Shown: piece by piece, positions 5,077-49,805 of the stretch
Layout of the letters: each line of letters opens with the position of its first letter
How positions within the stretch are numbered: position 1 is the first letter of the stretch
Assembly (NCBI RefSeq): GCF_023701525.1
Contig: NZ_JAMQAW010000012.1
Location: forward strand, 64,762-128,761
Length of the DNA stretch: 64,000 nt
Reading direction: 5' to 3'
Source: Streptomyces albipurpureus
GTDB lineage: Bacteria; Actinomycetota; Actinomycetes; Streptomycetales; Streptomycetaceae
Translations under genes and position numbers: made by a program
Notes under the pieces: model-generated
What the model was told of the DNA's origin: nothing
The model's database searches: none
The model's input: only the letters and a program-made list of their open reading frames with translations

Positions 5077-6225
5077 GTGCGGAGCGATGGAATCAGCCGA
5101 GCGCGGTTTCTCGCGGGAGCGGGAGCCATGGGTGTTGCCACCGCAGTCGGGACAACGGGGTGGGCAACGGCCGCTGAGCCGACGCCCATTGGTACATCGG
5201 ATGGCAACGCGAGGCGGCGCGGGCTCACCCACCGGGGTGTGTGCTACACGCTCGGAGCCGGTGAGACCCCCGGTACCGCGTGGCAGCCGGCGCGGGTGCG
5301 CGACGATGTACGGGCCATCCAGCGCGAGCTACACGCCGACTCGATCAAAGTCACCGGAGACGGTGTACAGCGGTTGACGACCACGGCAGCTGAAGCCGCG
5401 GAACGCGGCCTGCACATCTGGCTGGAGCCCACTCTCGGCGATCAGCCAGAACAGGACATTCTTGACCATCTTGCGGAGTGCGGTCGGTTCGCTGAGCGGC
5501 TGCGACGGCAGGGCGCGAAGGTCGATCTCAGTGTCGGCTGCGAGTTCTGGCTGTTCGTCCCCGGCATCGTGCCCGGCGCACATGTGCTGGAGCGGATCGC
5601 GAACCTGCAGAACGGCACCTTCGACCCAGTCCATATGCAACGTGAGCTACGGCGATTCATCGGCCGGGCCGCACGGGTCGGCAGATCCGTTTTCCACGGG
5701 CGGTTGAGCTACGCGTCCGCACAGGGCGATGAGGTTGACTGGACGCTCTTCGACATCGTTGGCCTCAACTACTACTCCTCCTTCCCCCGCCGATCGTCCT
5801 ACGTCCGTGAACTGGAGAAGTATCTACGCTGGGGTAAACCACTGGCGATCACGGAGTTCGGCACCTGCACCTTTGTCGGCGCACCGGAAGCAGGCGGCAT
5901 GGGGTGGGCAACGGTCGACTACACCAAGGATCCGCCGGAGATCATCGGCAATCCGATCCGAAGCGAACATACCCAGGCGGTCTATCTGCTGGAACTCCTG
6001 GATGTGTTCGAGTCGATGGGACTGTACTCAGCGATGGCATTCGAGTTCATCACCCCTGACCAACCGCATCGGAAAGAGATCCGATACGACCTCGATCTGG
6101 CGAGCTACGGCATCGTCAAGGTGATCAAGGACAACCCCAATGATCCGGAATCCGACTGGCACTGGAAGCCGAAGGAGTCGTTCCACGCCCTGGCCCGGCG
6201 CTACGCCCGGGCTGCCACCGACTGA
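5077..6225 (+). CDS. Tat-exported TIM-barrel (glycoside-hydrolase-like) protein
   Basis: A 382-aa protein. The N-terminus has a Tat-type signal (SRARFLAGAGAMGVATAVG, Ala-rich end near residue 32). The mature part follows a (beta/alpha)8 pattern like glycoside hydrolases: GLTHRGVCYTLG at strand 1, VGCEFW with Glu156, DIVGLNYYSSF, and AITEFGTCTF with Glu260. In clan A hydrolases the acid/base and nucleophile sit at strands 4 and 7, so Glu156 and Glu260 are the candidates. Related Streptomyces proteins are often labelled 'abortive infection protein', but nothing here supports a phage role. GTG at 5077 is chosen because aggagagg lies 11 bases upstream and the Tat motif follows directly. Substrate unknown. 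Confidence 0.75.
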   Translation: MRSDGISRARFLAGAGAMGVATAVGTTGWATAAEPTPIGTSDGNARRRGLTHRGVCYTLGAGETPGTAWQPARVRDDVRAIQRELHADSIKVTGDGVQRLTTTAAEAAERGLHIWLEPTLGDQPEQDILDHLAECGRFAERLRRQGAKVDLSVGCEFWLFVPGIVPGAHVLERIANLQNGTFDPVHMQRELRRFIGRAARVGRSVFHGRLSYASAQGDEVDWTLFDIVGLNYYSSFPRRSSYVRELEKYLRWGKPLAITEFGTCTFVGAPEAGGMGWATVDYTKDPPEIIGNPIRSEHTQAVYLLELLDVFESMGLYSAMAFEFITPDQPHRKEIRYDLDLASYGIVKVIKDNPNDPESDWHWKPKESFHALARRYARAATD

Positions 6226-6541
6226 CCAGGTCCTGCTCATAGCGGTGCGGCGGTCACATCCGAACGGTGGCGGCACCCACGTCGGTGATCTTGCACTTCA
6301 CCCGTGGACCGTGTTGCCGTTCGCCCTATTTCCTCTCTCCGTGGCGCATGAAATCATAAATACGTTACTAACGGTAAAGCGCCAACACCGCGCATTCTGC
6401 CTCAAGAGCGCCAGTGCCGTACTGTCTCGCAGGCTGGAAAGCAGCCAAGTGATTTGGTGATAGACCTCTGACTCTAGCCCTCGGGGAAAGCGCGCGGTTA
6501 AGTTGCTCGGTGGAATTCAAGTTCCACCACGAGGAGAGTGA
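6226..6541. promoter_or_regulatory. AT-richer upstream region of the S37-like gene
   Basis: A 316-bp gap that is visibly less GC-rich than its surroundings (for example around 6345-6375), as promoter regions often are. An inverted repeat ggtggaa/ttccacc with a 6-base spacer lies at 6509-6528, just before the ribosome site gaggag (about 6531-6536). It could act in the leader RNA or as an operator. Confidence 0.4.
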
Positions 6542-7867
6542 ATGCGTACCGCACTGAGATGGTTATTGTCGATTGTGGTGCTTTCTAGCGCCGTGAGCGT
6601 TTCCGGTGGCCCGGCTGCGGCATCCTCCGAGGACCCCATATCAGACATCAATGGACGCCTTGCCGCGCTTCCGGGAGTGACCTCCTCGCAGGAGATCACC
6701 AATAGCGAACACTTCGGTCTGCGCGCATACCGGGTCCAGTTCGAGCAGCCCAAGGACCATCGGCGACCAGCGGCGGGCACGTTCCAGCAGCAGGTCATCG
6801 TCTTCCACAGGGGCGAGACCCTCCCGACCGTTCTCACACCCACACAACACGGCCAGGGAAACCCCACCGGCATCCTCTTCCCGAAGAACGAAGTGAAGGT
6901 CGAGCAGCGCTTCCTGCCCGATTCGTCACCGCATCAGAAGGACCTGACAAAGCTGACCAGCTGGCAGTTGGCCACCGATCTGCACCGAGTGACGGTCGCA
7001 ATCAAGGGCATCTACGATCAGAAGTGGCTCTCCACAGGTATGGGAGTGACGGGTCAGATCGCGACGTACCACCGCCGCTTCTACCCGGCTGATGTGCAGG
7101 GGACGTATGTCCTCGCCGCTCGGAATGACGCGCGAAACAACGACGATTCGGCGTACGACGCGTTCTTCGCACGGGTGGGCACTCCCGAGTGCCGGGACCG
7201 GATCGCATCCTTCCAGCGCGAGGCCCTGGTGCGCCGAGACGAACTGGTGGAGCTCTACCGCCAGCAGGCCCAGGCGGACGGCGATACCTTCGAGCTGATC
7301 GGCTCGGTGGACCGCGCCTTCGAGATCTCGGTCACGGACTACCCATGGAAGTTCTGGGAACACCGGTCCGAGCGACTCTGCAAGATCGTTCCGCTGAAAT
7401 CGGCCACCACGGCCGTGATCTGGAACGAACTCCGCTTGAGTGCCGCCTACTTCCGGGGCGACAAAGACCTACGCTGGAACGAGCAGAACCTCTACCTGGC
7501 CGGAACTCAGACCGGCTGGCCCACCGTCAGCACACCGCACCTGGACGACCTCCTACGCTATCCGGGTATCAACAGCCCGCGAACCTTTGTCGACCGAAGC
7601 ATCCCCATGACCTTCGACAACAGGGCGATGGCGGACATTGACAACTGGGTCCGCAAGGATTCCTCCGAGATGATCTACATCTACGGAAAGAACGACCCGG
7701 TGAGTGCCGAGGCGTTCCGGGTCGACCAGGGCAGCAAGGATTCCCAGGTCTACTTCGGTGCTCCGTACGGAGGGATCGCCTATCTCACTCCGGCCGAACA
7801 GCAGGAGATCACCGGGAAACTGAGGAAGTGGGCTGGTGTAGCGGACCAGCCGCCCGCAATACGCTAA
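6542..7867 (+). CDS. Secreted S37-family (PS-10 tripeptidyl aminopeptidase-like) protein, catalytic residues lost
   Basis: A 441-aa protein with a Sec signal peptide (about residues 1-28). From there to the C-terminus it follows the family S37 pattern known from Streptomyces secreted tripeptidyl aminopeptidases: GTFQQQ, a Trp-Gln plus Asp-Leu-His-Arg segment, FFARVGTPECRDR, RSIPMTF, DNWVR and ASN-ASP-PRO near the end. The usual nucleophile motif is TGGSKGG. Here the matching place reads TGMGVTG, so the Ser is Gly168. The catalytic Asp motif is kept (YGKNDP, Asp385). The usual C-terminal Ala-Asn-His-Gly is replaced by GAPYGGIAY (about 406-414), which contains no His. The frame is intact, with a good ribosome site (gaggag), so this looks like an expressed pseudoenzyme, perhaps a binder, inhibitor or scaffold in the extracellular protease set. 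Confidence 0.85.
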   Translation: MRTALRWLLSIVVLSSAVSVSGGPAAASSEDPISDINGRLAALPGVTSSQEITNSEHFGLRAYRVQFEQPKDHRRPAAGTFQQQVIVFHRGETLPTVLTPTQHGQGNPTGILFPKNEVKVEQRFLPDSSPHQKDLTKLTSWQLATDLHRVTVAIKGIYDQKWLSTGMGVTGQIATYHRRFYPADVQGTYVLAARNDARNNDDSAYDAFFARVGTPECRDRIASFQREALVRRDELVELYRQQAQADGDTFELIGSVDRAFEISVTDYPWKFWEHRSERLCKIVPLKSATTAVIWNELRLSAAYFRGDKDLRWNEQNLYLAGTQTGWPTVSTPHLDDLLRYPGINSPRTFVDRSIPMTFDNRAMADIDNWVRKDSSEMIYIYGKNDPVSAEAFRVDQGSKDSQVYFGAPYGGIAYLTPAEQQEITGKLRKWAGVADQPPAIR

Positions 7868-7877
7868 CCGACCGGCT

Positions 7878-7912
7878 CAGGGCTGTCTCGCAATCCGGGT
7901 GGGACAGCCCTG
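7878..7912 (+). terminator. Hairpin terminator after the S37-like gene
   Basis: A perfect 10-bp stem, cagggctgtc (7878-7887) with gacagccctg (7903-7912), 15-base loop, 11 bases past the stop codon. No U-tract, as is usual in Streptomyces. Confidence 0.75.
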
Positions 7913-8459
7913 GGCAACGACTCAAAGCCTGGACGGGTAGCGGTGGCCCGCCGTGCGTCTCCGCTCGGTGGCCACCGTTGCGCGACGCTACAGCCTGTTC
8001 GTCAAGGAATGCACCGAGGGTTCCCAGATCTCGAAGCGCCAGCGCGCGGCCGCATCAGCGAGCAGTTCACAACCCCTCTTGCCCACCGGCGGTGGCCACG
8101 ACCCCGAGGGGCGGGTGGGCACGCCCTTGTCGCCCGTAGGCGATTCGTCGCCCTGCCGACCGGCGGGGAAGGGCCCCGGTTCAGCGAAGGCCGCGGCCAC
8201 CGCCGGTGGGCGCCGTTGGCCCAGGGCGCGTACCCGTCGGGGCCTCAGCCGATTCACAGGATCGAGACCCCTGCGAGTGGATAAGAGGGCAGAGCTTGCC
8301 CGACGGTTCATCGGAGCCGGGACTGAGGCCCGAATGCACCCCTCAGCTGGTCTCTTTCGGACATCAGTGATCGTTTGGCCAACCCAGATCACCGGAACTC
8401 CGCTTCTCTCAGGGTGAACGAGGCCGCACCGGCACGCTCAACTCCCCGCAGGAGGTCAT
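7913..8459. other. Intergenic, no gene seen
   Basis: About 550 bp. Open frames on both strands are Arg/Pro-rich and overlapping, with no recognisable motif. It must include the promoter of the subtilisin gene; ribosome site ggaggt lies at 8451-8456. Confidence 0.45.
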
Positions 8460-11400
8460 GTGTTCCAAAGACAGCAGCGCGCCGGGATGGCCGCGCTCAC
8501 AACCGCGGTCTCACTGGCGCTGGTCGCCGGAATGACCGAGGCCGGTACTGCCGCCGCCGTCCCAGCGCCTGCCGGAAACGCCTCGCAGGCACGGTCGGCG
8601 GCCGGCCAGCCGAGCTGGATCACACTGATCACCGGAGACCGTGTCCGGGTCGATGCGAAGGGCAAGGTCACGGGCTTCGACCATGCCGAGGGGCGGGCTG
8701 GGATACCCGTTGGGACCTATACGGACCGCGGACACACCTATGTGGTGCCCCATGACGCGCGCCGGCTGGTCGCCGATGGCAGACTGGACCGGCGGCTCTT
8801 CGATATCACCGAGCTGGGTAGGGCGGAGAGCCGAAACGCGCATCGGGACGGGCTGCGGCTGATCGTGGCGTACGGCGGTTCCGCCGGAGCGGGTGCCCGT
8901 AGGTCGGTCCGTGCTGCCGATGGCACCGAGTTCAACCGGGCGTTGAAGACGCTGAACGCGGACGCGGTGACCAGCACGCCGGAGTTGTGGGAGACCATCA
9001 CCAGGGATTCGAACGACGGAGCCAGGGTCGCAGCGTCCGGCATCAGCCGGATCTGGTTGGACGGCATCCGCAGCGCCACCCTGGAGAGGAGCACCGGGCA
9101 GATCGGGGCACCGAAGGCCTGGCAGGCCGGGTATCAGGGCAAGGGCGTGAAGATCGCCGTCCTTGACACGGGCGTTGACGCGGATCATCCCGACCTCAAG
9201 GGGCGGGTCGTCGCGGCCCAGAACTTCGGCGATTCCCCGGACACCCGGGACCGTGTCGGCCATGGCACCCACGCGGCCTCCATAGCCGCGGGCAGCGGAG
9301 CCCATGCCAACGGAACCCACCGGGGTGTCGCTCCCCAGGCTGAGATCCTCAACGGCAAGGTGCTGAACGATCTAGGCCGTGGCACCGACTCGGGCATCAT
9401 CGCGGGCATGGAGTGGGCGGTGGCGCAGGGAGCGGACATCGTCAACCTCAGTCTCGGCGGGCAGGACACCCAGGAGATCGATCCGCTGGAAGCCACTGTC
9501 AACAAGCTCTCGGCCCAGACCGGTGTGCTCTTCGCAGTGGCGGCGGGGAACGCGGGACCGAACGGGATCGATTCGCCGGGCAGCGCCGACGGCGCTTTCA
9601 CCGTCGGCGCGGTCGACCGCGCGGACAGGCTCGCCGGCTTCTCCAGCACCGGCCCCCGGGTCGGCGGCGGTGCGGTCAAGCCCGATGTGGCCGCGCCAGG
9701 TGTGGACATCTCCGCCGCGGCCACTGGGAATGGATCATCCGGGAGCACCCCGGGCTACCTCTCGATGTCCGGTACGTCGATGGCCACCCCGCATGTCGCC
9801 GGCGCCGCCGCCCTGCTCAAGCAGCAGCATCCCGGGTGGAAGGCGAAGGAGCTGAGGAGCGCCCTCGCCTCATCGGCCAAGGACACCGGACACACCCCCC
9901 ATGAGCAGGGCAGTGGCAGGATCGCCATCGACAAGGCGATCATCCAGACCGTGATCTCCGAGGAGACCTCGCTCGACTTCGGCAAGCAGGCGTGGCCGCA
10001 CACCGACGACACACCAGTCACCAAGAAGATCACCTACCGGAACAGCGGCAGCGCGGACATCACCCTCGATCTGGCGGTCACCGCCCATGGCCCCGGGAGC
10101 ACGCCCGTACCGGCAGGCTTCTTCACCCTCGGCACGAACCAGGTCACCGTCCCAGCCGAAGGCACCGCCTCCGTCGACTTCACTGCCGACACCCAGCGGG
10201 GTGGCGATGACGGCCACTACTCCGCCACCGTCGTGGCATCCGGCGGCGGCCAGACCGTCCGGTCCACCGCGGCGATCGAGCGGGAGGCCGAGTCCTACGA
10301 CGTCACCTTCAAGCACATCGGACGGGACGGGAAGCCGAGCAGGCACTTCAGGTCCGGGCTGAACTCATTGACCGCGCTGCATTCACCACCGCGATTCATC
10401 GATTCATCCGCCGGTGACCTCACCGTCCGGCTGCCCAAGGGTGAGTATGTGCTCGACTCCAACGCACCGGTCGACCCCAAGAACCCGGCCGACGGCATCG
10501 ATGTGCTGCTCCAGCCCAAGCTCACGGTGGACAAGGCCCAGACGGTGACTCTCGACGCCCGCCTCACCAGGCCGGTGAAGCTCACCGTGCCCCATGCGAA
10601 GGCCAGGATCGCCGCCGGAATGATGGAGTACAACCGGACCTCCTCGAACGGTCGGGGCACCGGCGGGTACTTCCCCGTGGACTCGTTCGACACATTCAAC
10701 ATCGCTCATCTCGGCCCGCAGATCACGGACGGGTCCCTGAACCAGATATGGGTCGGGAACTGGCGCAAGAACTCCCGCACGGAGTACAACGCCGCTTCCG
10801 GCGGCCCGGTGAAGCGGATCGCCACCGGCTACACCCGCGACTTCAGGGCCGCGGAGTTCGCCACGGTGAAGGTCGGTCTCGGCGCCTCGGTCAAGGGCAA
10901 GCGGGCAACCGTGGAACCGACCGCGTACATCCCGGGAGGCCACTGGGGAATGGTCGGCTTCGGTGTCGCGCGGCCCTCGCCCGACACCCGCACGGTGTAT
11001 GTCTCCAACGGTGACAGGGTGAGGTGGAACTTCTACGTGGGCCAGGTCGCATCGGACGACCCGAACGGCGGGTACCAGACCGATCTGCTCCTGAACTCAC
11101 CGCCCAAGACCTACCGGGCCGGCAAGACCCATCAGGAGACCTTCAACACCGCTGTCTTCGGGCCGATGCTCGATCAGTGGTCGGGGCTCTGGCGATACGG
11201 CGACCAACTAGTGGCCCAAGTACCGCTGTTCGCTGATGGCCGGGGCAACTCCGGCACCGGCGCCGTCCAGTCCGCCCGCACCACGCTCCACCGGAACGGG
11301 ACGAGGATCGGCGAGAACTCCGACGCGTTGACCGGTCGCGAGACGCTGCCGATCGGTCGGGAGGCGGGTCAGTTCACGCTCACCACCTCGGTCACACGGA

Positions 11401-11792
11401 GCGCCACAACGACACGGGTGAGCAGCCGAATCGACGCCGAGTGGACCTTCCGCGCCGATGCGGCACCCACGGACGGTCAGGTGACGCTACCGATCTCGAC
11501 AGTGCGTTTCACCGGTGCCCAGGTCGGTCTCGACAGTACCGCTCCTGCAGGTGCCACCCAGACCATTCCGCTCCAACTCCACGGCGCGGCGGCGAAGGGC
11601 AACATCGCATCGCTCACCGCGCAGGCCTCCTATGACGGCGGCAAGACCTGGCGGAAACTCACGGTGACCAAGAACAAGGTGACCGTGAAGAACCCGGCGA
11701 AGGGCAGGTCGATCACCCTGCGCGCCCAGGTGGCCGACAGGCAGGGCGGCATGCACAAAGTCACCGTGCACAACGCCTTCTTCGGCGGATAG
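8460..11792 (+). CDS. Secreted S8 (subtilisin-like) serine protease, large form
   Basis: An 1110-aa preproprotease. A signal peptide (about 1-32, ending in TAAAV) is followed by a propeptide of about 190 residues and a subtilase catalytic domain (about 225-490) with the full triad: Asp236 in VLDTGVD, His268 in VGHGTH and Ser440 in SGTSMATPHVAG. The oxyanion Asn is within AAGNAG. After the catalytic domain come about 600 residues of beta-rich C-terminal domains with Ig-like/Fn3 repeats, usual in large Streptomyces subtilases. It should be exported, mature by propeptide removal and degrade proteins outside the cell. GTG 8460 is set by ribosome site ggaggt with 3-bp spacing to the overlapping ATG at 8458; the GTG frame is the coding one. 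It is the active counterpart to the inactive S37-like gene upstream. Confidence 0.95.
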   Translation: MFQRQQRAGMAALTTAVSLALVAGMTEAGTAAAVPAPAGNASQARSAAGQPSWITLITGDRVRVDAKGKVTGFDHAEGRAGIPVGTYTDRGHTYVVPHDARRLVADGRLDRRLFDITELGRAESRNAHRDGLRLIVAYGGSAGAGARRSVRAADGTEFNRALKTLNADAVTSTPELWETITRDSNDGARVAASGISRIWLDGIRSATLERSTGQIGAPKAWQAGYQGKGVKIAVLDTGVDADHPDLKGRVVAAQNFGDSPDTRDRVGHGTHAASIAAGSGAHANGTHRGVAPQAEILNGKVLNDLGRGTDSGIIAGMEWAVAQGADIVNLSLGGQDTQEIDPLEATVNKLSAQTGVLFAVAAGNAGPNGIDSPGSADGAFTVGAVDRADRLAGFSSTGPRVGGGAVKPDVAAPGVDISAAATGNGSSGSTPGYLSMSGTSMATPHVAGAAALLKQQHPGWKAKELRSALASSAKDTGHTPHEQGSGRIAIDKAIIQTVISEETSLDFGKQAWPHTDDTPVTKKITYRNSGSADITLDLAVTAHGPGSTPVPAGFFTLGTNQVTVPAEGTASVDFTADTQRGGDDGHYSATVVASGGGQTVRSTAAIEREAESYDVTFKHIGRDGKPSRHFRSGLNSLTALHSPPRFIDSSAGDLTVRLPKGEYVLDSNAPVDPKNPADGIDVLLQPKLTVDKAQTVTLDARLTRPVKLTVPHAKARIAAGMMEYNRTSSNGRGTGGYFPVDSFDTFNIAHLGPQITDGSLNQIWVGNWRKNSRTEYNAASGGPVKRIATGYTRDFRAAEFATVKVGLGASVKGKRATVEPTAYIPGGHWGMVGFGVARPSPDTRTVYVSNGDRVRWNFYVGQVASDDPNGGYQTDLLLNSPPKTYRAGKTHQETFNTAVFGPMLDQWSGLWRYGDQLVAQVPLFADGRGNSGTGAVQSARTTLHRNGTRIGENSDALTGRETLPIGREAGQFTLTTSVTRSATTTRVSSRIDAEWTFRADAAPTDGQVTLPISTVRFTGAQVGLDSTAPAGATQTIPLQLHGAAAKGNIASLTAQASYDGGKTWRKLTVTKNKVTVKNPAKGRSITLRAQVADRQGGMHKVTVHNAFFGG

Positions 11793-17748: not shown

Positions 17749-18856
17749 TGCTTCTCCTTGTGGATGTCCGTCCAGGACATCTCTGATCCTGCTAGGGGTG
17801 TCGCTTTGATGGTCAACGGGCTCGATGGCCGGGAAGGGGCCCGGGCGGTGGGTGATGGCATTCGCAGCAGATTCGGCGGGGCGGGCCGCGGGGCCATCGG
17901 CAGATCCACTGCGACACCCACCCTTCCCACCTCGCTGTGTCCTGGCGTACGGTCACCGACCGCCGCTCCCGCCTCGGGCCATCCATTGATCCGACACGCC
18001 TTCGGCATGACCTCGACGGCACAGGTCTCCGCGATCGGTGGGGCCTATGCCCAACGCCGACCCCCGGTAGGTGTGAACACGACTCGGCTCGCTCACACCC
18101 CACAAACTCCCCTGCACCATGGGCCCGTTGAAGAACAGTTTGCCACGCATGGGGTGGAGTGCACAGAGCACTTCGTGACAATGCACTGTGCATACTTCGC
18201 GGCGTGATAGGCCCTCAGGAGAAGGTACGCAGGTCAGCGGCTAGCTGGCCCAAGAGGCGAGGCCCGACGTGGCCCTGGCCGGGAGGGCACCAAACCCCAT
18301 CGCGTGGCGGGAGGAGGGGCGTGAGGACACAGCCGCCGGCGTTCTGGGCGGCGTCACCGTAGGCCCGGCCACGCGGTACGAACATGCCCCATGAGGGGGT
18401 AGCAGCTGGCCATCCGCAGGGAGAAGGCTCAGTGGCCGGGGCAAGCGGAGGAGATCGCGGCATCCGCTCGACTCCGCTAACCATAGGAATACGGTGGATA
18501 CTCACCCATCGAGGGCAACACACGCCCATGCGGGGTGACTTCACTCGCACGGACAGCGGAGGAAGCCCAGGGACCGGGGTGCTTCAGCCGCTCCCGGAAC
18601 CAACCTGACGCGTACTCGGCCCCACCCGCCAAGCGCCCGAACAAGCCAACCGCCTACGCGGCCCGACGCCCCTTGAGTAGATTCCTACCGTCGCAGTCCC
18701 GCACGAGGACACCATAATCTACCGGCTTTAGCTCGACCTTCAATTCCGACAATTGAAACGCTGCCACCTCTCTCTGGAATTCACCACTCCCGCAGGGCAA
18801 TCAGGGCCGGGATCCGCATAAAGGACATCAATATGCCAGAAGCCAGAAGGGGACAT
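17749..18856. other. Long divergent intergenic region (about 1.1 kb)
   Basis: No gene can be supported. The expected XRE partner of the DUF397 gene is not found on either strand. The part from about 18700 to 18856 is AT-richer and should hold the promoter of the amidohydrolase. A perfect 13-bp palindrome is listed separately. Confidence 0.5.
18181..18193. promoter_or_regulatory. Palindrome atgcac-t-gtgcat
   Basis: Perfect 13-bp palindrome in a gene-free stretch, followed 25 bases later by a ribosome-site-like aggagaagg (about 18217-18225) with no clear start codon after it. Operator-like, target unknown. Confidence 0.35.
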
Positions 18857-20575
18857 ATGAATCGCGGTAATGGCATCACCTTGCTCGCCGTAACGGCCGC
18901 ACTAGCCATCTGCTCGATTCCATCGTCTACGACCATGAGCGTGCAACCCCTGCGGAACGTGGCAGCCTCCGACCCCGGCGTACTGCTCACCGGCAAAGTG
19001 GTAACCATGAACGATGCAGGGGAAGTCTGGCCGGGCGCCCGCCTCTGGGTTCGAGCTGGACGTATCGAAGCGATTACCAAAATGGGCGATCCATTACCGG
19101 CAGGCGCAAAAGACGCACAAGTCATCAACACCGATGGTGTGATTTATCCAGGGATGATCGATCTGCACAATCATCCTGAATTTTCCATCTATCCGTTAAT
19201 GCCCATTCGGAAGGCATACAAGGATCGCTATGAGTGGCGATTCTATGAAGCCGCCTACAACAAGCGCATCACTTACCCTCAACTCGTTCTGGCCGCGAAC
19301 GACTACTACGACCTCGGCATGGAAATGGGCCGATACGGCGAGTACAAGGCCATGGCGGGTGGCACAACGGCTCTCCAGGGTGGGAGCGTGGACCGACCGT
19401 ACTCCACCAGCGAATGCCTGGTACGCAATATCGAGAATTCAAGAGTTGGTCCGCGACTGGCCGTGAGCCGTGTGGATATCGGTCGCGACGCGATCGAATG
19501 GGCTGATCTACTGAGGGTAAAAGAAAAAGGCCTGCTGGCGCTGCACCTGGCCGAAGGAACCAGCTCACGTATGGCGACCGAGTACGAGGCCATCAAGAAG
19601 AGCGGTTTGGTAGGTTCCGAACTCATCACCATTCATAACGTAGGGCTCACCCGAGATCAGTTCAAGGATATGGCGGCTCATGGCGCCAAAATGGTCTGGT
19701 CGCCACTTTCGAATTTCCTCCTCTATGGAAAGACCGCTGATGTAGCTGCCGCAAGGAAGGCTGGTCTCGCCATCAGCCTGGCACCCGACTGGGCGCCCTC
19801 CGGGAGTAAGTCGATCCTGGGTGAGCTGAAAATCGCGGATCTCGTAAACAAACATCAACTCAACGGCCTGTTCAGCGATCGCGAACTGGCAGAAATGGTG
19901 ACACGAAACCCGGCCCAAGCTATGCGCTGGACCGACCGTGCCGGTCAGATCGCGCCAGGTTTCGTGTCCGACCTAGTGGTGATGGATGATCAACACAATG
20001 ATCCCTATCGGAACCTGATCGAAGCCACTGAAGAGAATGTACGGCTACTGGCTGTGCGCGGCGAAATGCTGTATGGGGATCAGTACATCATGCGGAAGGT
20101 CCGCCGCGCGGTGGACATCGAAGGCACGGCGAAATTCGACAACAACCGGACCAAGGTCATGGCGGTGGACTGCCCTGGGACGAAACTACCGAAGATGAGC
20201 TTCGCCGAAACAAAGGATCGACTGCAGCGCGCACTCGATATGGATCCCAGCTTTCTCCTGGAACAGGTACAGAGAAGACCAGATTCCGTAAAGAGGATTG
20301 TCGCCGAGCTATCCAACTGTCCGGGTGGCAGTTCAGCCGGCAGATTGACGGCTGCGGATATGAAGCGCCTCCTCAGTTGCCGCCTCGGGTTGCCCTACGA
20401 GAGAACAACGCTGAGCCCCCTGGTCACCAACGACGATGAAGAGTGGATGGCTCGATTGCTGGCCAATCCAAATATCCCGACATACCTGAAAGCCTTGCCG
20501 CATTACTATGAGAGGAAGCAGGAAGAGGGAGAACATCAGGGTAACCAGGGCAACGAACAGCACACTCGAAGGTAG
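18857..20575 (+). CDS. Exported amidohydrolase-family metal hydrolase
   Basis: A 572-aa protein of the amidohydrolase (metal-dependent TIM-barrel) superfamily. The N-terminal hydrophobic stretch (about 5-28) looks like a signal peptide. The beta-sandwich front is followed by DLHNHPEF (HxH metal site), LHLAEGT (His), ITIHNVG (His) and SLAPDWAPSG (metal Asp), with a closing GQIAPGFVSDLVVMD sandwich. The last 130 residues form an extra C-terminal part with an acidic, charged tail. ATG 18857 is chosen because agaagggg lies 5 bases upstream. Codon third positions are clearly less G/C-biased than in neighbours (many aaa, gat, att, tat codons), suggesting later acquisition. Substrate unknown; chlorohydrolase/imidazolonepropionase-like enzymes are the nearest style. 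Confidence 0.85.
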   Translation: MNRGNGITLLAVTAALAICSIPSSTTMSVQPLRNVAASDPGVLLTGKVVTMNDAGEVWPGARLWVRAGRIEAITKMGDPLPAGAKDAQVINTDGVIYPGMIDLHNHPEFSIYPLMPIRKAYKDRYEWRFYEAAYNKRITYPQLVLAANDYYDLGMEMGRYGEYKAMAGGTTALQGGSVDRPYSTSECLVRNIENSRVGPRLAVSRVDIGRDAIEWADLLRVKEKGLLALHLAEGTSSRMATEYEAIKKSGLVGSELITIHNVGLTRDQFKDMAAHGAKMVWSPLSNFLLYGKTADVAAARKAGLAISLAPDWAPSGSKSILGELKIADLVNKHQLNGLFSDRELAEMVTRNPAQAMRWTDRAGQIAPGFVSDLVVMDDQHNDPYRNLIEATEENVRLLAVRGEMLYGDQYIMRKVRRAVDIEGTAKFDNNRTKVMAVDCPGTKLPKMSFAETKDRLQRALDMDPSFLLEQVQRRPDSVKRIVAELSNCPGGSSAGRLTAADMKRLLSCRLGLPYERTTLSPLVTNDDEEWMARLLANPNIPTYLKALPHYYERKQEEGEHQGNQGNEQHTRR

Positions 20576-31306: not shown

Positions 31307-31322
31307 CATGTCGGACGACATG
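31307..31322 (+). promoter_or_regulatory. Small hairpin before the metE ribosome site
   Basis: catgtcg-ga-cgacatg (7-bp arms, 2-base centre) ends 6 bases before the aaggagag ribosome site. It could be a DNA operator or part of the riboswitch expression platform. Confidence 0.4.
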
Positions 31323-31340
31323 CTCGCGAAGGAGAGTTCT

Positions 31341-33665
31341 GTGACATCCAAGTCCGCAGTCGCGGCGGCACGGGCCACCGTGTACGGCTATCCCCGTCAG
31401 GGGCAGGGCCGAGAGCTGAAGAAGGCCATCGAGGGCTACTGGAAGGGGCGCGTGAGCGCCGATGCCCTCCAGCAGGCGGCAGCCGGCCTTCGGCGCAGCA
31501 ACTGGCAGCAACTGGCCGACGCCGGTATCCACGAGGTGCCGACCGGCGACTTCTCCTACTACGACCATGTTCTGGACACCAGTGTCATGGTCGGCGCGAT
31601 CCCCGACCGCCACCGGGCCGCCGTGGCGGCCGACGCCCTCGACGGGTATTTCGCCATGGCGCGAGGCACCCAGGATGTGGCGCCCCTGGAGATGACCAAG
31701 TGGTTTGATACGAACTACCACTATCTGGTGCCGGAACTGGACCCGAACACGGTCTTCACCGCGAACTCCTCCCAGCAGGTGGCCCAGGTGCGGGAGGCAC
31801 TGGCGCTGGGTCACTCCCCCCGGCCGGTACTGGTCGGCCCGATCACCTATCTGCTGCTCGCTAAGCCGGCCCCCGGTGTTGACGAGGGGTTTGACCCGCT
31901 GACACTGCTGGACCGACTGCTTCCGGTGTACGCGGAGGTCCTCGCCGATCTACGGGCGGCGGGCGCAAGTTGGGTGCAGCTGGACGAGCCCGCCCTCGTC
32001 CAAGACCGCTCCCCGGCTGAACTGAACGCGGCATCCCGTGCCTACCAGGCCCTCGGCACGCTGACCGATCGGCCCAAGGTGCTCGTCGCCTCCTACTTCG
32101 ACCGCTTGGGTGAGGCGCTCCCCGTACTGGCCAAGTCCCCGGTGGAGGGCCTCGCGCTGGACTTCACCGAGTCGGCGGCCGCCAACCTGAGGGACCTCGC
32201 CGCTGCCGGTGGGCTGGCCGGCAAGCGACTGGTGGCCGGTGTCGTCAACGGTCGCAACATCTGGATCAACGACCTGGAGAAGTCGCTGTCCACCCTCGGT
32301 ACCCTGCTCGGTCTGGCTGACCGGGTCGATGTCGCCGCTTCCTGCTCGCTGCTGCACGTTCCCCTCGACGCGTCGGTTGAGAGCGAGATCGATCCTCACA
32401 TCGCCCGCTGGCTCGCCTTCGCCCGTCAGAAGACGGCCGAGATCACCCTCCTCGCCCGGGGGCTCACCGAAGGTACGGAGGCCATCGCCGCCGAGCTGGC
32501 GGCCAACCGAGCCGATCTCACGGCCCGCACCACCTCGGCGATCACCCGCCACCCGGCCGTACGCGCCCGTACCGCGGCCGTCACCGACGCCGACAGCCGC
32601 CGTCCCCAGTCCTATCCCGAGCGGGCCAAGGCCCAACGGGAACAACTCGGTCTGCCCCTGCTCCCGACCACCACGATCGGCTCCTTTCCGCAGACCGCGG
32701 AGTTGCGTACCGCTCGCGCCGAGCTGCGGTCCGGACGCATCGACATCGCCGCGTACGAGGAGCGCATCGAGTCGGAGATCCGGGAGGTCCTCGCCTTTCA
32801 GGAGCGCGTGGGAATCGATGTCCTGGTGCATGGGGAGCCAGAGCGCAATGACATGGTGCAGTTCTTCGCGGAGCAGCTGACCGGTTACCTCGCCACCCAG
32901 CACGGTTGGGTGCAGTCGTACGGCACCCGCTATGTGCGTCCGCCGATCCTCGCCGGTGACATCTCCCGCGCCAAGCCGATGACCGTGCGTTGGACGACCT
33001 ACGCCCAGTCACTCACCGATCGACCGGTCAAGGGGATGCTCACCGGGCCGGTCACCATGCTGGCCTGGTCGTTCGTCCGGGACGATCAACCGCTCGGGGA
33101 GACCGCCCGCCAGGTGGCGCTCGCGCTGCGTGATGAGGTCGGCGATCTGGAACGGGCGGGAGCATCGGTCATCCAGGTGGATGAGCCAGCGCTGCGCGAA
33201 ACCCTGCCGCTGCGGGGCGCCGACCGTCCCGGCTATCTGGCGTGGGCCACCGAGGCGTTTCGGCTCACCACCAGTGGGGTGCGCGCGAACACCCAGATCC
33301 ACACACATATGTGCTACGCGGAGTTCGGTGACATCGTCGAGGCGATCGACGATCTGGATGCCGATGTCATCAGTCTGGAGGCGGCCCGCTCGCATATGCA
33401 GGTCGCGACCGAGCTGGCTGCCCATGGGTATCCGCGTGAGGCCGGTCCGGGGGTGTACGACATCCACTCGCCACGCGTTCCGACCGTGGACGAGGCAGCC
33501 AGCCTCCTGCGCAAGGGTCTCGCCGCCCTCCCGGCCGAGCGGCTCTGGGTCAATCCAGACTGCGGTCTCAAGACCCGCGGCTGGCCCGAGACCCGAGCGT
33601 CCCTGGAGAATCTGGTCGCCGCTGCCATCAGGGTGCGGGGTGAGCTTCCGGCCCAGCCCTCCTGA
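31341..33665 (+). CDS. metE: Cobalamin-independent methionine synthase
   Basis: A 774-aa 5-methyltetrahydropteroyltriglutamate-homocysteine methyltransferase, making methionine without B12. Two halves of the double barrel are visible. The C-terminal catalytic half carries the Zn ligands His656, Cys658, Glu680 and Cys741, whose spacing (2, 22, 61) equals that of E. coli MetE (641, 643, 665, 726). Folate-site segments such as TTIGSFPQT, HGEPERNDMVQFF and NPDCGLKTRGW are present. GTG 31341 is chosen because aaggagag (31329-31336) precedes it by 4-5 bases. The B12 riboswitch upstream is the expected control. A 16-bp terminator stem follows 10 bases after the stop. Confidence 0.98.
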   Translation: MTSKSAVAAARATVYGYPRQGQGRELKKAIEGYWKGRVSADALQQAAAGLRRSNWQQLADAGIHEVPTGDFSYYDHVLDTSVMVGAIPDRHRAAVAADALDGYFAMARGTQDVAPLEMTKWFDTNYHYLVPELDPNTVFTANSSQQVAQVREALALGHSPRPVLVGPITYLLLAKPAPGVDEGFDPLTLLDRLLPVYAEVLADLRAAGASWVQLDEPALVQDRSPAELNAASRAYQALGTLTDRPKVLVASYFDRLGEALPVLAKSPVEGLALDFTESAAANLRDLAAAGGLAGKRLVAGVVNGRNIWINDLEKSLSTLGTLLGLADRVDVAASCSLLHVPLDASVESEIDPHIARWLAFARQKTAEITLLARGLTEGTEAIAAELAANRADLTARTTSAITRHPAVRARTAAVTDADSRRPQSYPERAKAQREQLGLPLLPTTTIGSFPQTAELRTARAELRSGRIDIAAYEERIESEIREVLAFQERVGIDVLVHGEPERNDMVQFFAEQLTGYLATQHGWVQSYGTRYVRPPILAGDISRAKPMTVRWTTYAQSLTDRPVKGMLTGPVTMLAWSFVRDDQPLGETARQVALALRDEVGDLERAGASVIQVDEPALRETLPLRGADRPGYLAWATEAFRLTTSGVRANTQIHTHMCYAEFGDIVEAIDDLDADVISLEAARSHMQVATELAAHGYPREAGPGVYDIHSPRVPTVDEAASLLRKGLAALPAERLWVNPDCGLKTRGWPETRASLENLVAAAIRVRGELPAQPS

Positions 33666-47247: not shown

Positions 47248-49530
47248 CTACCGGCCCACATACTGGCGCAGATGCCGTGCGGTGAGTGTGTCGGCCGAGG
47301 CGACCAGTTCCGCTGGGGTTCCGGTGAACACCACCTGTCCGCCGTCATGGCCGCCTCCGGGGCCAAGGTCCACCAGCCAGTCGGCGTGTGCCATCACCGC
47401 CTGGTGATGCTCGATGACGACCACGGTGTTCCCTTCGTCAACCAGCCGATCGAGCAGCGCGAGCAGCTTGTCCACATCGGCCATATGAAGGCCGGTCGTC
47501 GGCTCGTCGAGGATGTAGGTGGAGGACTTCTCCGCCATGTGGATCGCCAGCTTGATCCGCTGCCGTTCTCCTCCGGAGAGCGTGTTGAGGGGCTGTCCCA
47601 GCCGAAGGTAGCCGAGCCCCACCTCGTTCAGTCGCCCCAGGATGGTGTGCGCCTGGCCGGTGGGGAAGAAGTCGAACGCCTCGGCGATCGACATCCCGAG
47701 TACCTCGCTGATGTTCTTGCCGCGCAGCTGGTAGGTGAGCACCTTGGGTGTGAACCGCTTGCCCTCGCACTCCTCGCACACCGAGGCGACACCGGCCATC
47801 ATCGCCAGATCGGTGTAGACCAGTCCGATCCCGTTGCACTTGGGGCAGGCACCTTCCGAATTCGCGCTGAACAGCGCGGCTTTGACGCCATTGGCCTTGG
47901 CGAACGCGGTACGAATGGGTCCCAGTAGACCGGTGTAGGTGGCGGGGTTGGAGCGCCGGGAGCCGCGGATCGGTGACTGATCGGCGACGACGACCCCGTC
48001 CTGATCGGCGAGATAGCCATGGATCAGTGAGCTCTTGCCCGAGCCCGCCACTCCGGTGACGACGGTGAGCACGCCGAGCGGAATGTCGACGCTGACGTCC
48101 TTCAGGTTGTGGCGATCGGCGCCCTTGACGGAGAGCTGCCCTCGGGGCTCGCGAACGGGCTGACGCAGCTCGGTGCGATGCTCCAGATGGCGTCCGGTGA
48201 GGGTGCTGGAGGCGCGCAGTCCATCGACGGTGCCGCTGAAACAGATCTCGCCGCCCGCCTCACCGGCGCCCGGGCCCAGATCCACCACATGGTCGGCGAT
48301 CGCGATGACTTCGGGCTTGTGCTCGACCACGAGGACGGTGTTCCCCTTGTCCCGGAGCAACAGCAGCAGGTCATTCATGCGCTGGATGTCATGTGGGTGC
48401 AGCCCGATGGTGGGTTCGTCGAAGATGTAGGTCACATCGGTGAGGCTGGAGCCTAGGTGGCGAACCATCTTCACGCGCTGGGCCTCACCGCCGGAGAGGG
48501 TGGAGGCGGGCCGATCCAGACTCAGATAGCCCAGTCCGATCTCGGTGAGCGAGTCCAGGAGATGGCGCAGATTGACCAGCAGCGGGCCCACGGAAGGATC
48601 GTCTACCGAGCGGACGAAGGTGGCGAGGTCGCTGATCTGCATGGCCGAGCACTCGGCTATGTTCACCCCGCCGATCTTCGACGAGAGGGCGGCCTGGCTG
48701 AGTCTCGTACCCTCGCACTCAGGGCAACGGGTGAAGACCACCGCGCGGTCGACGAAGGCACGGATATGTGACTGGAGTGACTCGCGGTCCTTGATGAGCC
48801 AGGTCCGCTGGAGCTTGGCGGCGAGCCCTTCGTAGGTGAAGTTGCTGGAGCCGACCTTGACCTTGACCGGCTCCTTGTGGAGCAGATCGGCCCATTCCTG
48901 CTCGGTGAACTCGTTGAGCTTCTTCTCCGGGTCGAAGAAGCCGGAACCGGTCACGATCGACCAGGGCCACGAGTCCACCGCATGGCCGGGGACGGTGATC
49001 GCACCCTCGTTCAGGCTCTTCGCGCGGTCGACGAGTTGATCGGTATCGATCTGTGATACTTCGCCGAGCCCCTCACACCGAGAGCACATCCCCTCGGGGA
49101 CATTGAAGCTGAAGGCGCTGGAGGTGCCGATGTGTGGTGTGCCGAGGCGGCTGTAGATGATCCGCAGCATGGTGTACGCATCGGTCGCGGTGCCCACGGT
49201 GGAGCGTGAGGTGGCGCCCATCCGCTCCTGGTCGACCACGATCGCGGCGCTGAGGTTGTGCAGTCCATCGACGTCCGGGCGGCCCTGGCTCTGCATGAAC
49301 GACTGGATGAAGGCGGTGTAGGTCTCGTTGATCAGCCGTTGGGACTCGGCGGCGATGGTCCCGAAGACAAGGCTCGACTTGCCGGACCCGGACACTCCGG
49401 TGAAGACCGTAAGGCGACGCTTGGGTAGGTCGATATCCACATTGCGTAGATTGTTTTCACGTGCTCCTCGAACCTTGATGACACTGTGACTGTCGGCGGG
49501 GACCTGCGGCGGGGAGTCGGCGGCGGACAT
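47248..49530 (-). CDS. UvrA-like ABC ATPase, short DrrC/UvrA2 type
   Basis: A 760-aa tandem ABC ATPase of the UvrA class but shorter than true UvrA (about 950 aa). It has two Walker A motifs (GVSGSGKSS, about 45-53, and GVAGSGKSS), two signature regions (LSGGEAQRVKMVRHL and LSGGERQRIKLAIH), and Zn-binding Cys motifs (SRCEGLGEV, CPKCNGIGLV, CEECEGKRF). This layout equals DrrC and UvrA2 proteins, which protect Streptomyces from DNA-binding drugs without acting in full UvrABC repair. ATG 49530 is chosen because the family sequence begins soon after and AAAGG lies upstream. No drug biosynthesis or uvrB/uvrC gene is nearby. Confidence 0.92.
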   Translation of the reverse strand: MSAADSPPQVPADSHSVIKVRGARENNLRNVDIDLPKRRLTVFTGVSGSGKSSLVFGTIAAESQRLINETYTAFIQSFMQSQGRPDVDGLHNLSAAIVVDQERMGATSRSTVGTATDAYTMLRIIYSRLGTPHIGTSSAFSFNVPEGMCSRCEGLGEVSQIDTDQLVDRAKSLNEGAITVPGHAVDSWPWSIVTGSGFFDPEKKLNEFTEQEWADLLHKEPVKVKVGSSNFTYEGLAAKLQRTWLIKDRESLQSHIRAFVDRAVVFTRCPECEGTRLSQAALSSKIGGVNIAECSAMQISDLATFVRSVDDPSVGPLLVNLRHLLDSLTEIGLGYLSLDRPASTLSGGEAQRVKMVRHLGSSLTDVTYIFDEPTIGLHPHDIQRMNDLLLLLRDKGNTVLVVEHKPEVIAIADHVVDLGPGAGEAGGEICFSGTVDGLRASSTLTGRHLEHRTELRQPVREPRGQLSVKGADRHNLKDVSVDIPLGVLTVVTGVAGSGKSSLIHGYLADQDGVVVADQSPIRGSRRSNPATYTGLLGPIRTAFAKANGVKAALFSANSEGACPKCNGIGLVYTDLAMMAGVASVCEECEGKRFTPKVLTYQLRGKNISEVLGMSIAEAFDFFPTGQAHTILGRLNEVGLGYLRLGQPLNTLSGGERQRIKLAIHMAEKSSTYILDEPTTGLHMADVDKLLALLDRLVDEGNTVVVIEHHQAVMAHADWLVDLGPGGGHDGGQVVFTGTPAELVASADTLTARHLRQYVGR

Positions 49531-49805
49531 ACGAAGGACCTTTCCTGTACTTGGTCGTTGGCACCTGGAGACACGGCCGGCTGGAGCGGGGCGCGAGCGG
49601 CCCTCCCCTGACACACCAGGACAAGCACGGATCTCCAACCCCATCTTCGCGCACCGCGGTGGAGTTCTTGACGATGAGAAGTCTCTCCTTCGGCGGGCGG
49701 CCCGGGCCGGGAGGGACGAGACTCGCTGTCAACGAGGAACCGACCGGGCGAAGGGGCGCGGCCCAGGCGCAGCGCCGCGTTCATTGACACCCAGAGGTAC
49801 CCAAA

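Follow-up and report, generated by a model that had tools for sequence, protein, structure and literature searches.

An S37-family homologue in Streptomyces albipurpureus that lacks the catalytic serine and histidine and is retained under apparent purifying selection

The gene at 6542-7867 of the window (the whole stretch of 64,000 nucleotides of Streptomyces albipurpureus DNA analysed here) encodes a homologue of the S37 peptidases that fails two of the defining catalytic features of its family, and we therefore class it as a pseudopeptidase rather than an S37 peptidase. Judged from its sequence, the protein cannot use the S37 mechanism. The gene is not a decaying pseudogene: its frame is intact in two species, and the ratio of nonsynonymous to synonymous change (dN/dS) between them is 0.236. 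Taking descent, loss, purifying selection and ligand binding together, we favour, with moderate confidence, the view that the product is an exported non-catalytic binding protein built on a retooled alpha/beta-hydrolase frame. The features on which the argument draws are as follows.

6531-6538, + strand: ribosome-binding site GAGGAGAG, read from the sequence upstream of the ATG
6542-7867, + strand: S37-family pseudopeptidase gene, 441 amino acids (open reading frame and translation, Pfam match, orthologue in Streptomyces uncialis)
6542-6622, + strand: putative Sec-type signal peptide, residues 1-27, MRTALRWLLSIVVLSSAVSVSGGPAAA, judged by eye
6845-6850, + strand: Gln102-His103, replacing the near-invariant Gly-Tyr of the presumed oxyanion loop (alignments; the oxyanion role is presumptive)
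6902-6910, + strand: kept Glu121-x-Arg123 motif, found also in two homologues from Bacteroidota (alignments)
7043-7045, + strand: codon of Gly168, in the column of the nucleophile serine (alignments with active S37 proteins)
7694-7696, + strand: Asp385, the retained member of the triad, in the NDP motif (alignments)
7757-7783, + strand: His loop GAPYGGIAY, shortened and free of histidine, with Tyr409 in the His column (alignments)
7875-7915, + strand: hairpin with a 17-bp stem after the stop codon, a possible terminator lacking a T run (fold energy)

The frame opens with ATG and holds no internal stop, which, together with the ribosome site, confirms the initial annotation of an intact gene; the S. 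uncialis orthologue has a ribosome site of its own upstream (AAGGAGAG). Pfam PF05576 (Peptidase_S37) matches the 441-residue protein over residues 33-435 with 317.7 bits (E 1.5e-94) against a curated cut-off of 27 bits, and the protein belongs to the homology family over most of its length. For the signal peptide that had been proposed, residues 1-27 follow a Sec-like pattern, as judged by eye, and the leader is similar to the MRKALRWLL... leader of active S37 proteins. Immediately upstream of the ribosome site lies an inverted repeat, GGTGGAA-TTCAAG-TTCCACC (6509-6528), that could be an operator; the 66-nt stretch that holds it folds no better than its shuffles (z -0.67). No sigma-70-like promoter was found at 6200-8500. 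At the other end of the gene, the 58-nt stretch containing the hairpin has a fold energy of -34.4 kcal/mol (z -5.07), and a consensus scan of the + strand found no classical terminator. The genome to which the window belongs (9,365,620 bases in 138 contigs) encodes one further S37 protein, on a separate contig (C69), which scores 775 bits and has an intact triad.

Where active S37 proteins have the nucleophile motif TGGSKGG, the alignment shows T165-G-M-G168-V-T-G171 in the window protein (TGMGVTGQ in place of TGGSKGGM in the longer form of the motif). The His loop of active members (e.g. VFTAPGANHGANVAGL) corresponds to VYFGAPYGGIAYL, which is three residues shorter. These losses are rare. 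A set of 97 S37 sequences was assembled from 94 matches, found in 85 of 91 genomes of the genus, and three from S. uncialis; no row was dropped from the alignment, and one row (L152) has a stop read as X. The aspartate of the NDP motif is present in all 97, whereas the histidine of the NHG motif, and likewise the complete triad, is present in 95. All five sequences added from Embleya, Nonomuraea, S. nigrescens and two Bacteroidota have the complete triad, and thus 100 of the 102 sequences checked keep it. The serine of GGSKGG is likewise present in 100 of the 102, the two exceptions (both counted in that total) being the window protein and its S. uncialis orthologue, which have glycine. The loss of the serine, the loss of the histidine and the retention of Asp385 were therefore all correctly read at the outset. 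Paralogues that are 44-50% identical to the canonical enzyme keep the triad, as does a very divergent S37 protein (L155, branch length 1.29) that is the sole S37 match in its own genome. The paralogue L152 has its stop inside the aligned part.

The assignment of the S37 triad is supported by the S28 peptidases. A profile built from the S37 family matches human DPP2 (3jyh/4ebb) and PRCP (3n2z), both active enzymes with solved structures. The GGSxGG motif of the profile aligns with that of DPP2 in a significant stretch, whereas alignment of the Asp and His motifs is confined to a second stretch, which taken alone is not significant; we take the aligned DPP2 motifs to have the catalytic roles in that enzyme. 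The window protein, unlike DPP2 and PRCP, lacks both the serine and the histidine.

The initial annotation spoke of two losses on an otherwise conserved body. Both losses are real, but the extent of change was understated. At 121 positions, one residue is conserved in at least 95% of 95 active S37 sequences (our definition of near-invariant). Both orthologues keep 81 of these and both have lost 32, the other eight being lost in one of the two; at 22 of the 32 jointly lost positions, the two orthologues have an identical new residue. The replacements in the window protein include G102Q, Y103H, K169V, G170T, M172Q, P315Q, Y316N, Q319L and L324T. By our count, 19 of the 32 fall in five elements, namely the Gly-Tyr loop (100-107), the nucleophile turn (168-172), the strand after the turn (189-194), the 315-324 segment and the His loop, which from the positions of the motifs are presumed to be active-site elements; the other 13 lie elsewhere. 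Both orthologues keep Glu121, Arg123, Asp385, Glu390 and the cysteines C217 and C280. The window protein lacks the C-terminal tail of the canonical enzymes, as do several paralogues with an intact triad. An AlphaFold model made with the two-row alignment had a mean pLDDT of 36 and was discarded, and from homology we infer an alpha/beta-hydrolase fold for the protein.

The single known orthologue, in S. uncialis DCA2648, was found by one scan with strict peptide patterns of an 84,980-species genome collection, a scan that may not have covered close relatives of the window's genome. It is 75% identical to the window protein, with residues 1-439 matched, and it shares both losses, as the initial annotation had proposed checking: it has the same GMGVTGQ motif, with glycine for serine, and no histidine, its His loop being one residue shorter again, with a gap at the His column. 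S. uncialis, too, has a canonical S37 protein (L054), as well as a third S37 paralogue, with the triad intact. No third orthologue was found by the strict-pattern scan of that collection, nor in overlapping samples of 392 genomes of the genus, 395 of relatives, 391 of the genus around S. uncialis and 391 of the order, in which at most four candidates per genome were scored. With a two-row profile, the orthologue pair scored about 1000 bits and nothing else scored above 408 bits, and an alignment-based scan of viral contigs found no relative. Within the reach of these searches, the pseudopeptidase gene is rare. We met no S37 pseudopeptidase in the accessible part of the literature on S37 peptidases, on pseudoproteases or pseudoenzymes with Streptomyces, and on S. 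uncialis, subscription journals being mostly outside that search.

Evidence that the gene is maintained comes from comparison of the two orthologues. The mature pseudopeptidase pair (410 codons, after removal of 30 leading codons as signal peptide) gives dN 0.150, dS 0.634 and dN/dS 0.236 (bootstrap 95% interval 0.173-0.313). For the active canonical S37 pair from these genomes (428 codons, after removal of 45), dN is 0.281, dS 0.700 and dN/dS 0.402 (0.310-0.523); these are NG86 values, from a simple codon model and at high dS. The ratio of the pseudopeptidase is the lower of the two in 99.5% of bootstrap pairs, and the LWL85 components (0.169/0.606 for the pseudopeptidase, 0.307/0.654 for the active enzyme) fall in the same order; the maximum likelihood estimate returned an unusable dS of 33.8 for the active pair. 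The contrast shrinks when the last 45 codons of the active pair are left out, because its ratio then falls to 0.367 (a point value, with no bootstrap). The dN/dS comparison suggested at the outset thus gives a low value for the orthologues, 0.24 against 0.40 (0.37 without the tail). Among the eight stretches tabulated, conservation is highest at codons 161-200, which surround the dead nucleophile (88% identity, dN 0.058, dS 1.07), on a count of only 40 codons. The His loop is not tightly kept, since its length differs between the two orthologues. As only two orthologues are known, the case for constraint rests on a single pair.

In the tree, a stem of length 1.53 leads to the pseudopeptidase pair, whose tips measure 0.12 and 0.31, with a support of 100/100, and we read these lengths as one burst of fast change with slower change since. 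The pair falls outside the other actinobacterial S37 rows; constraining it to join the canonical clade (p-AU 0.436) or the long-branched L155 (p-AU 0.183) was not rejected, and the long branches join once Bacteroidota are added. The trees were made from 39 of the 97 and 35 of the 102 rows, the tips L152-L154 coming from places flagged with stops.

These observations can be arranged into a proposed history. The protein would descend from an active, tripeptidyl-aminopeptidase-like ancestor and would have passed through heavy change on one long branch, on which the nucleophile serine, the histidine and the presumed oxyanion loop were lost; afterwards, it would have been kept under purifying selection. 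Presumably folded and probably exported, it would act in the cell wall or the exoproteome, where the old active-site face, with replacements fixed before the two species split, may hold a ligand (a peptide, a protein or a small molecule) without hydrolysing it. A binding role would be the simplest account of loss, constraint and active-site change together. The original suggestion of an exported pseudopeptidase kept for another job stands as far as the sequence goes, given an orthologue with both losses and a low dN/dS, except for the job of regulating the subtilisin encoded next to it. Capture of the old tripeptide substrate, also suggested, is weakened because residues that hardly vary among the active enzymes have been exchanged in what are presumed to be elements of the pocket. 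For inhibitor binding, the third job suggested, the results speak neither for nor against. More specifically, and only tentatively, the protein could be a secreted sensor or sequestering protein in which a peptide or protein signal from outside the cell is bound by the former pocket, rebuilt around Gly168, Gln102 and His103, which would make the protein a counterpart within S37, in principle, to CspC.

CspC of Clostridioides difficile is described as a pseudoprotease that acts as a germinant receptor, a bacterial serine-protease homologue that senses and does not catalyse. The analogy is one of principle only; CspC is a subtilisin-like spore protein, of a different family from S37. Neuroligins and other non-catalytic proteins of the alpha/beta-hydrolase type likewise reuse the frame for binding after loss of the nucleophile, although neuroligins are eukaryotic adhesion proteins and not members of S37. 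The nearest known systems are the S37 peptidases themselves (PF05576), such as the PS-10 peptidase and the prolyl tri/tetrapeptidyl aminopeptidase of Streptomyces. The window protein is homologous to them over residues 33-435 and has in common with them a signal-like leader, the aspartate, the N-x(4)-E-x-R motif and the cysteine pair, but lacks their serine, histidine and canonical C-terminal tail, with the Gly-Tyr loop replaced and the His loop shortened. One S37 member, from S. mobaraensis, is described as trimming transglutaminase (PMC11878206). As to a link with transglutaminase maturation, neither of the two genomes gave a match to PF09017, but the control gave none either, so that the negative carries no weight.

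Pseudoenzymes are a known kind; what is of interest here is their occurrence in a family with a triad that is otherwise fixed in the sample. Because the S37 triad is otherwise invariant in the sequences examined, the gene may offer a clear example from nature of a peptidase whose chemistry was lost and which selection afterwards preserved, and because an active paralogue is present elsewhere in both genomes, the loss of catalysis can be separated from the loss of constraint. It is also a warning against annotation by family score alone: the protein clears the Pfam cut-off by a wide margin and yet cannot be the peptidase which that score suggests.

After the binding role, the explanations that come next are a partnership with the active S37 paralogue and a new form of catalysis. 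In the first of these, which we regard as unlikely, the protein would act as a decoy that competes for the same N-terminal peptides, or would pair with the active enzyme and tune it. Both carrier genomes do have a canonical S37 protein with an intact triad (L001 on C69, and L054 of S. uncialis), and Glu121, Arg123, Asp385 and Glu390 are kept. Co-occurrence with an active S37 protein says little, however, because S37 is near-universal in the genus (matches in 85 of 91 genomes), and P315Q, Y316N, Q319L, L324T, G102Q and Y103H alter positions that are near-invariant in the active enzymes. The pseudopeptidase and active genes are on different contigs. Active S37 genes have a promoter-like element, [GC][AC]TA[GA][GC]TT, 39-48 or 63-69 nt upstream of the start in 45 of 52 rows, but this element was not found upstream of the pseudopeptidase genes; the pattern was picked after inspection of the sequences, and the count comes from 55 rows that were not deduplicated (L056 repeats L033), includes seven active rows without the element and leaves out later loci.

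Still less probable is the recruitment of other residues for catalysis, for example His103 of the changed loop with Thr170 or Ser164. Six serines or histidines occur in both orthologues but, at the same columns, in no sequence of the 95 active S37 proteins (S21, S48, S49, S55, H57 and H103), and His103 alone among them falls in one of the five presumed active-site elements; Ser164 and Thr170 are also present in both orthologues. Against this, neither has a serine at residues 166-173, and residue 165 is threonine in the window protein but serine in S. uncialis. Nucleophile elbows have the motif G-x-Nu-x-G, and Thr170 lacks the glycine that would be needed two residues further on. The replaced Gly-Tyr loop and the shortened His loop also speak against a working site.

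That the gene is a dying copy without function, or a product of sequencing error, is very improbable: the long stem branch and the lack of a third copy in the sampled genomes might suggest decay, but decay is contradicted by the selection result (dN/dS 0.236, with an interval well under 1) and sits poorly with a frame and ribosome site intact in two species, while the same losses in two separate assemblies argue against error.

Least credible of all is a role as regulator or chaperone of the neighbouring subtilisin, for which there is adjacency on the same strand and a subtilase domain (201.8 bits for Pfam S8) but against which stand a 592-nt gap holding the strong hairpin and the different surroundings of the S. 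uncialis copy. The gene in question (8460-11792, 1110 amino acids) is the next one downstream, and no match to it was found within about 40 kb on either side of the S. uncialis orthologue (80 kb in total), so that this part of the initial annotation is left unsupported. S. uncialis has four full-length relatives of the subtilase, at 51-67% identity: those at 67%, 64% and 54% are on other contigs than the orthologue, and that at 51% is about 520 kb off on the same contig. Nearer to the orthologue, about 61 kb from it, there is a weak subtilase match (84.6 bits).

The gene order around the two copies is loosely similar and not collinear. In a blastn comparison of the window with those 80 kb, only three genes match, namely the S37 gene (6528-7857), a cobalamin-independent methionine synthase and an ABC-ATPase that we label UvrA-like; tblastx adds scattered low-identity matches. 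The genes scanned next to the S. uncialis copy are of other kinds. Since the neighbours, the subtilisin included, differ around that copy, the conserved unit appears to be the S37 gene alone. The methionine synthase and UvrA-like genes, at 31308-33665 and 47248-49644 of the window, are inverted relative to the S37 gene when compared with S. uncialis. Two other genes of the window may be mentioned. On the upstream side of the pseudopeptidase gene, an open reading frame of 382 amino acids (5077-6225) looks by eye like a glycosidase of the TIM-barrel type, although neither Pfam nor NCBIfam contains a match to it at E 0.001. Further away, a 580-residue amidohydrolase-like protein is encoded at 18833-20575, in a stretch of low G+C (0.598 at 18001-20000, against 0.666 and 0.658 on the flanks), and this gene was possibly acquired.
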